Shown here piece after piece: positions 51,847 to 53,996 of a stretch of 64,000 nt of DNA. Position numbers and translations under genes: made by a program. This DNA is from Thermoleophilia bacterium. GTDB lineage: Bacteria; Actinomycetota; Thermoleophilia; Miltoncostaeales; Miltoncostaeaceae. The stretch covers positions 1 through 64,000 of the forward strand of contig SHVE01000001.1 in assembly GCA_009694365.1 (NCBI GenBank), in the 5' to 3' direction. A model generated the notes under the pieces. The model was not told the origin of the DNA and did not search any database. It saw nothing but the letters and a program-made list of their open reading frames with translations. Each line of letters opens with the position of its first letter. The first letter of the stretch is position 1.

Positions 51847-52164
51847 TTAGGCCGAACCCTCGACCGGTAGTCCGCTCTGGTGCCACGCGGTGATGCCGCC
51901 CTCGAGGTTGACGAGGCCCCTGAAGCCCTCGTTCTCTTCCAAGTAGAGGCACACGGTCTCGGATCGCCCGCCCGAGTGGCAACTGACGATGACGGTGCGC
52001 TCGCGGGGAACCTCCGCCAGCCGGGAGAGCAACTCGCTCATGGGGATGAGGGTGGCACCGGGGATGCGGGTCTGCGCCGTCTCCTCGGGCTCGCGCACGT
52101 CGATGATGATTGCGGTGCCCGCCCTTGCTGCGGCGTCGGCTTGCGTCGGAGTCATGAGTTCCAT
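51847..52164 (-). CDS. single-domain rhodanese-like sulfurtransferase
   Basis: The 105-residue protein is one rhodanese domain: IIIDVREPEETAQTRIPGA at the start, the catalytic Cys loop VSCHSGGRSETVC and the ending NLEGGITAWHQSGLPV. The CHSGGRS loop is of active sulfurtransferases like GlpE. It is 9 bases after the end of lipA on the same strand; a role in sulfur delivery to lipoyl or Fe-S enzymes is possible but is inferred from position alone. Confidence 0.9.
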   Translation of the reverse strand: MELMTPTQADAAARAGTAIIIDVREPEETAQTRIPGATLIPMSELLSRLAEVPRERTVIVSCHSGGRSETVCLYLEENEGFRGLVNLEGGITAWHQSGLPVEGSA

Positions 52165-52173
52165 GGCGTGAGG

Positions 52174-53385
52174 CTAGATGACGCCCGCGCCGACTTCGTC
52201 GGCAACCCGGTCGGCCTCAAACGACGATCGCACGAGCGGGCCAGCCTCGACATGCGTGAGCCCCAGCGACCGCCCGAGCAGCGTGAGTGCCGGATACTCG
52301 GCCGGCGCGTAGAACCGTGCCACCGGGAGGTGCCGGGGGCCACCGGGGCTGAGGTACTGGCCCACCGTCACTACATCCGTGCCCGTGGCGGCGAGGTCGG
52401 CGAACACCGTGGCGATCTCGGGCAGGGTCTCACCGAGCCCCACCATGATTCCGCTCTTGGTGGGCAGGCCCGCCGCGGCCGACCGCGTCAGCAGTTCGAG
52501 CGTGCGCTCGTACTGGGCGCCGGGTCGCACCTGCCGGTAGAGCCGCGGCACCGTCTCGGTGTTGTGGTTGAGCACGTCGGGCCCAGCGTCGATGACCTGA
52601 CTCAGGGCGTCCCAGTTGCCGCGGAAGTCGGGGATGAGCACCTCCACCCGGGTCCCCGGAACCCGTTCGCGGAGAGCCGCGATGACGGCCGCGAAGTGCC
52701 CGGCGCCACCGTCGGGCCGGTCGTCGCGCGCCACGGCGGTCACCACCACGTAGCGCAGGCCCATGGCGGCCACGGCATCGGCAAGGCGACCGGGCTCCGC
52801 CGGATCGGGCGGCAGCATGGGCTTCCCTGTTGCCACGTCGCAGAAGCGGCAGCCACGCGTACAGGTGTCGCCGGAGATCATGAAGGTGGCCGTGCCACGG
52901 GTCCAGCAGCGCTGGATGTTGGGGCACGAGGCCTCCTCGCAGACGGTCACCAGGCTCTCCTGGCGCATGAGCGATTTCAGGTGAACGTAGCCCGGCCCGA
53001 ACGACCCCTTCTCCACGACCCAGCGCGGCAGGCGACCGCCGTCCACTAGTTGGCGCAACTCATCCGGCGCCACATCGACCACGTCGAGCGCGTCCACGGG
53101 CCCGGGTCCCACGAGAACGTCGCCAACCACCACATCGGGCACGGCACCACGGTCGTGGGCGGCGCGTACGCGGGCTAAGAGGTCGTCAGTCGGGGGAGTG
53201 TCCACGCGGAACGCCCGCTGCCCGGTCACCGGGAGCGCGCCCGGGGGCATCCCGTACTCGGAGCTGTCCACATCGAACGCCCGGTGCCCCACCACCACGG
53301 CGCCTCCGTCATCGCCGTCGACGGGTGGGCTGTCCACGCGGAACGGCCGCTGCCCCACCACCGTCTCCTCGGTATCCCCACTCAC
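52174..53385 (-). CDS. lipA: lipoyl synthase with repeat-bearing N-terminal extension
   Basis: The 403-residue protein contains a complete LipA core from about residue 120: auxiliary cluster Cys in CEEASCPNIQRCW, radical SAM triad in CTRGCRFCDV, VTAVARDDRPDGGAGHFAAV, NTETVPRLYRQVRP and the C-terminal RSSF (VRSSFEADRV) that binds the auxiliary cluster. LipA is normally about 300 residues. The extra N-terminus has three copies of a V-[VT]-G-[QH]-R-x-F-x-VD decamer at residues 9-18, 31-40 and 53-62, exactly 22 residues apart, then an Asp/Val-rich stretch. The role of the extension is unknown. No lipB or gcvH is in the window. Confidence 0.94.
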   Translation of the reverse strand: MSGDTEETVVGQRPFRVDSPPVDGDDGGAVVVGHRAFDVDSSEYGMPPGALPVTGQRAFRVDTPPTDDLLARVRAAHDRGAVPDVVVGDVLVGPGPVDALDVVDVAPDELRQLVDGGRLPRWVVEKGSFGPGYVHLKSLMRQESLVTVCEEASCPNIQRCWTRGTATFMISGDTCTRGCRFCDVATGKPMLPPDPAEPGRLADAVAAMGLRYVVVTAVARDDRPDGGAGHFAAVIAALRERVPGTRVEVLIPDFRGNWDALSQVIDAGPDVLNHNTETVPRLYRQVRPGAQYERTLELLTRSAAAGLPTKSGIMVGLGETLPEIATVFADLAATGTDVVTVGQYLSPGGPRHLPVARFYAPAEYPALTLLGRSLGLTHVEAGPLVRSSFEADRVADEVGAGVI

Positions 53386-53444
53386 GCCCCTGAGGCTAGC
53401 CCAGCCCGCGATGTCCGGGCGGGCATCGGGTAGCGTGCCCGCCC

Positions 53445-53996
53445 ATGGTCCTGTCCGATCGAACGATCCGCGAGGAGATCGCCGCCGGGCGCCTCGTCAT
53501 CGACCCGTTCGACGACGCGCTCGTCCAGCCCTCGTCAATCGACTTGCGCGTGTCCGGGGATTTCCGGGTGTTTCGCAATCACACTCAAGAGGTCATCGAC
53601 CCGCGCGAGCCCGACGGCAACCTCACCGAACTGGTCACGGTCACCGACGAGCAGCCCTTCGTGCTGCACCCCGGCGAGTTCGTGCTCGGGTCCACTCTGG
53701 AGCGGGTGGGGATCCCCGACAATCTGGTGGCCCGGCTGGAGGGCAAGTCGAGCCTCGGTCGCCTAGGTCTGCTCATTCACTCGACGGCGGGCTACATCGA
53801 CCCGGGCTTCGAGGGCACCATCACCCTCGAGTTCTCGAACGTGGCGACCCTTCCCATTCTCATCCGCCCGGGCATGCGTATCGGGCAGATTTCGTTCCTC
53901 CAGATGACCACCCCGGTGGATACACCGTACCGTGGCAAGTATCAGGGGCAGGCCGGTCCGACCTCGAGCCGCTCGCACCGCGACTTCGCGCCCTAG
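53445..53996 (+). CDS. dcd: dCTP deaminase
   Basis: The 183-residue enzyme shows the Dcd start [49 protein letters not shown] as two parts [10 protein letters not shown] and [13 protein letters not shown], and the C-terminal [20 protein letters not shown] and [11 protein letters not shown] are the catalytic motifs of Dcd. Some members also hydrolyse dUTP (bifunctional dCTP deaminase/dUTPase); this sequence does not decide which. Its TAG stop is shared at CTAG with the convergent membrane-protein gene. Confidence 0.94.

Follow-up and report, generated by a model that had tools for sequence, protein, structure and literature searches.

Human lipoyl synthase (LIAS) has a belt, made up of residues 66–110, at its interface with the H protein (PMC12246082). 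The published LIAS structures contain a truncated protein (residues 65–372) from which the upstream part is absent, indicating that an upstream extension is dispensable at least in human LIAS. To our knowledge, both the delivery of the carrier to LipA and the rebuilding of the sacrificed auxiliary cluster are largely open beyond a few studied organisms. A folded, order-specific domain lying just before the carrier-gripping segment, as predicted here for LipA of the order Miltoncostaeales (Thermoleophilia), offers a concrete candidate contact site.

The window, that is, the whole 64,000-nt stretch of DNA analyzed, comes from an uncultured actinobacterium and encodes a LipA of this kind (Table 1). 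The product scores 344.8 bits against the curated equivalog TIGR00510 (cut-off 310.25), with the match running from residue 117 onward, and VIA-align aligns it with solved LipA and LIAS structures at a Z of approximately 32. The auxiliary-cluster motif CX4CX5C (C149, C154, and C160), the radical-SAM motif CX3CX2C (C175, C179, and C182), and the RSS motif (R386-S387-S388) were all identified in the core and are invariant across the aligned LipA sequences (alignment A1). The pN/pS of the core within the genus is 0.15. On sequence grounds, this ORF is a lipoyl synthase with predicted catalytic activity. Aligning human C106 with C149 places LIAS residues 66–110 at residues 109–153 of the window protein.

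Table 1. Positions in the window of the lipA gene, its predicted parts, and its neighbors
Feature	Coordinates	Strand	Remarks
lipA, lipoyl synthase	52174..53385	(-)	403 aa, GTG start; TIGR00510 score and fold match
Catalytic core, residues 117–403	52177..53037	(-)	both cysteine motifs and RSS motif
Order-specific accessory domain, residues 53–116	53038..53229	(-)	strand-helix-three strands-helix, ~64 residues (predicted)
N-terminal tail, residues 1–52, with copies 1 and 2	53230..53385	(-)	predicted disordered
Decamer copy 1, residues 9–18	53332..53361	(-)	species-specific extra copy
Decamer copy 2, residues 31–40	53266..53295	(-)	species-specific
Decamer copy 3, residues 53–62	53200..53229	(-)	ancestral; aligns with the single copy of relatives
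TAGCCT -10-like element	53393..53398	(-)	7 nt before the GTG start, leaderless-type
Rhodanese-domain protein	51847..52164	(-)	9 nt downstream of lipA
dcd, dCTP deaminase	53445..53996	(+)	TIGR02274, 222.7 bits; divergent from lipA over 59 nt

Upstream of the core, residues 53–116 are predicted to fold into a small domain. This domain has a pLDDT of 79–97 (in blocks of ten residues) in the AlphaFold2 model of the full protein, and 82–94 over most of its length when modeled in isolation as 68 residues. Nine positions in this region are invariant across the order (alignment A2), including an arginine that belongs to a decamer described below. Across the genus, pN/pS is 0.37 for the domain and 0.29 for the decamer; the domain is thus under purifying selection in the genus. 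When the domain profile was searched against 149 genomes of the class, convincing matches were found in family f1 only; matches in other families reached only E-values of 0.001–0.01 and were judged to be chance. The extension had no significant match in sequence searches of Pfam, NCBIfam, and PDB, and Foldseek and VIA searches with the domain model gave no convincing PDB match, the rows shown all being weak. Two identities were rejected: the PPR matches to the domain profile add up many copies that individually fall below threshold, and the BRCT rows (Z 2.2–2.4) are too weak for use. An order-specific accessory domain on LipA, with no Pfam or NCBIfam family, is the most durable result of this analysis. 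The first-pass annotation had described an extension of about 110 residues that is not needed for catalysis. This extension indeed lies outside the catalytic core, but about 64 of its residues make up the conserved domain and only residues 1–52 are new to the species.

The three decamers, VVGQRPFRVD (from residue 9), VVGHRAFDVD (from residue 31), and VTGQRAFRVD (from residue 53), all retain R-x-F-x-VD. The earlier description of these repeats as real and exactly periodic stands: their summed pairwise identity at a period of exactly 22 residues is 22/30, and 400 shuffled versions of the N-terminal region gave at most 14. In the predicted domain, copy 3 forms the first strand (E56–61).

A LipA match was found in 38 of 42 sampled Miltoncostaeales genomes, the window included. 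A few residues past the start, each of the other 37 N-termini carries one segment of the RAFRVD type, in some cases degenerate, and in the alignment this single copy falls on the third decamer of the window protein. Copies 1 and 2 were found only in the window species (one genome, compared with the 37 other LipA of the order), and copy 1 sits at the same offset from the start codon as the sole copy in the genus relatives. The upstream match of L032/L060 to residue 13 was rejected, as it sits ahead of their start codon. In the LipA tree, the window sequence groups with L035, L036, and L037 (96/90 support) and is closest to L036 and L037. These three neighbors are single-copy, which places the origin of the two extra copies in the window lineage. 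The repeats, which the first-pass annotation had suggested looking for in other LipA, are by this comparison not a general LipA feature. Other Miltoncostaeales LipA otherwise resemble that of the window in their N-terminal domain, leaderless-type start, dcd neighbor (nearly all), and rhodanese gene (most), but have one decamer rather than three. One genus (L026/L048 and L029/L052) has lost the decamer pattern, with ALERALSC replacing RAFRVD and the rest of the N-terminal domain kept. Separately, public MAG records titled Bifidobacterium breve or Acidobacteria (L039, L063, and L038) contain the LipA and gene order of the window's Miltoncostaeales genus and appear to be misnamed.

The start of lipA is preceded by a conserved element. 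All 16 aligned sequences of the genus share TA(G/C)CCT, followed by 7 nt and then GTG or ATG, at one position, and outside the genus a TA-N3-T element lies just before the start in most family members. TASCCT-N7-RTG has 1 match in the window against 0.41 expected. Judging from this arrangement, lipA looks like a leaderless transcript starting at 53385, and conservation makes its start codon well supported. The first-pass annotation had considered that the true start might lie after the repeats; this fails, as the genus starts are all at one place. The tail is free of stops and has a coding-like GC content by codon position (0.81/0.50/0.88). The conserved start, the -10-like element, and the coding-type GC together indicate that the repeats are most likely translated. 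The divergent dcd gene (pair at 53385–53445) is apparently leaderless too, with TAGCGT 8 nt before its ATG, and most of the order has kept TA-N3-T a few nucleotides ahead of the start (loci L005–L019 and L035–L065). In the AlphaFold2 model, residues 1–50 have a pLDDT below 50, with copies 1 and 2 at 27–38. The tail varies in length and sequence within the genus and thus tolerates insertions.

Comparison of the copies at the DNA level gives an indication of their origin. The decamers share 23–26 of 30 nt and the spacers 7–11 of 30; the likeness spans about 33 nt in each copy and does not extend into the 33-nt spacers, which are unrelated. Tandem Repeats Finder detected no array. The six residues common to the three decamers use the same codon in every copy. 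Between copies, pN/pS is approximately 0.8–1.4 on small codon counts, compared with 0.29 for the decamer across the genus, and silent divergence is lower than that between species of the genus. Shared codons, pN/pS near 1, and low silent divergence point to a duplication younger than the species split, under little constraint. Two marks of a selected array were looked for: a conserved copy number, which is contradicted by at most one copy in 37/37 order relatives, and an excess of silent over amino-acid changes between copies, which these pN/pS values, from small numbers, do not show. Searching the genome with the repeat DNA gave no significant match elsewhere, and a dispersed DNA element was rejected.

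The triplicate strand most likely reflects a recent duplication at the DNA level, and not an array selected for multivalent docking. We propose that Miltoncostaeales LipA would carry a small, folded domain at its N-terminus, with (E/Q)RAFRVD as the first strand. In the window species, the DNA of this strand would have been duplicated twice, the new copies lying after the start codon and ahead of the domain. These duplicates would be translated into a disordered tail as surplus strand sequences, without structure and with little function of their own. We put the probability of this reading, an order-specific domain with recent and mostly functionless copies of its first strand, at about 0.72. 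Copies 1 and 2 would accordingly evolve nearly neutrally. As a counter-point, R-x-F-x-VD is kept amid unrelated spacers; selection on the motif could likewise account for this pattern, and copies 1 and 2 may have a role. The locus illustrates clearly how a repeat that is striking and regular in a single sequence turns ordinary on alignment with its relatives.

An edge-strand exchange seems unlikely. Copies 1 and 2 would compete with copy 3 for the place of strand 1, within or between molecules, and produce an alternative register or domain-swapped oligomers. Such competition would suit the assignment of copy 3 to strand 1 and the hydrophobic F-x-V pattern and invariant arginine that the copies retain. 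However, AlphaFold leaves copies 1 and 2 unplaced in the low-confidence tail, and the changes at P14 and D38 are unusual for strand 1.

The first-pass annotation had interpreted the decamers as linear motifs for multivalent docking, binding several copies of a partner such as a lipoyl domain, an Fe-S donor, or the rhodanese. We consider this quite unlikely, even though the decamers are real, translated, and regularly spaced and the genome has several domains of the lipoyl/biotinyl type, including two that share an open frame. The rhodanese gene adjoins lipA and is mostly syntenic, being found 3' of lipA in the majority of relatives with a flank long enough to include it, so a rhodanese-LipA partnership is plausible from gene order. 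Single-copy relatives also have the rhodanese, however, and the synteny therefore gives the repeats no support. Copy 3 is predicted as a strand within a folded domain and not as a free motif, no purifying signal is seen between the copies, and the R-to-D change of copy 2 and the A-to-P change of copy 1 are absent at these positions in the aligned relatives. With no relative exceeding one copy, the extras in a tail predicted to be disordered, and no codon-level sign that the protein sequence is conserved, binding of multiple partner copies is not supported; a single-copy accessory domain may contact a partner. The proposed search for the repeat in other proteins of the genome found none in which the motif forms an N-terminal element. 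The DNA contains four other R-[A/P]-F-x-V-D matches, which were rejected: they lie in frames that are short or due to chance, or within a long protein that by eye resembles pyruvate phosphate dikinase. One of them is inside lipB but on the other strand; lipB is located elsewhere in the genome, apart from lipA.

The arrangement around lipA varies somewhat across the order. In the window genus, the rhodanese gene directly follows lipA, while most other genera with a downstream copy have a gap of approximately 600–1100 nt. L049 has the rhodanese on the other side of lipA. In L053 (2090–2785), the gap between lipA and the rhodanese may hold a putative small protein with a zinc-ribbon-like C-x2-C pattern. 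The dcd gene adjoins lipA in nearly all relatives, with a gap of approximately 60 nt in the genus.

A resemblance to glutaredoxin was also noted. In a comparison picked after weak PDB matches, the domain profile scored 21.8 in hhalign over 46 columns against the C-terminal half of glutaredoxins from the same genomes, with VP-x-V and VG-type positions aligning, and four decoy families scored 12–15. This score was reached by 1 of 850 column-shuffled profiles, and the hhalign probability was only 18%. Glutaredoxins are absent from the Foldseek and VIA rows shown for the 68-residue model, all of which are weak. Unlike glutaredoxin, the domain lacks the CxxC half, no CxxC/CxxS active site is present, and residues 1–116 contain no cysteine. 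The resemblance is a weak lead only. It is highly improbable that the domain is a cysteine-free thioredoxin/glutaredoxin-type half-domain docking a rebuilder of the auxiliary Fe-S cluster, with the binding strand multiplied in the window species.

A mis-called start, in which copies 1 and 2 would be leader DNA and translation would begin at V53, the GTG of copy 3, deserves equally little credence: V53 is followed by T-G-(E/Q)-R, as at the starts of L035 and L061, but it has no obvious Shine-Dalgarno sequence ahead, and it conflicts with the genus-wide start site and the coding-like, stop-free residues 1–52.

With the recent duplication preferred, what survives of the docking idea is the single accessory domain. 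It lies directly ahead of the segment equivalent to the LIAS belt, and the most economical guess from this position is that it may help to bring either the lipoyl carrier protein or an Fe-S supplier into position at the active site. Compared with canonical LipA (Thermosynechococcus elongatus 4u0p and Mycobacterium tuberculosis 5exk) and human LIAS (9c19 and 8v0j), the window protein differs at its N-terminus: most alignments to the solved proteins start at residue 110 or later and offer no counterpart to the domain, and the solved proteins lack the disordered tail with its two further strand copies. The core (residues 117–403), the cysteine motifs, and RSS are common to all of them, and the alignments reach Z 31–32 over 259–286 residues with 36–48% identity.
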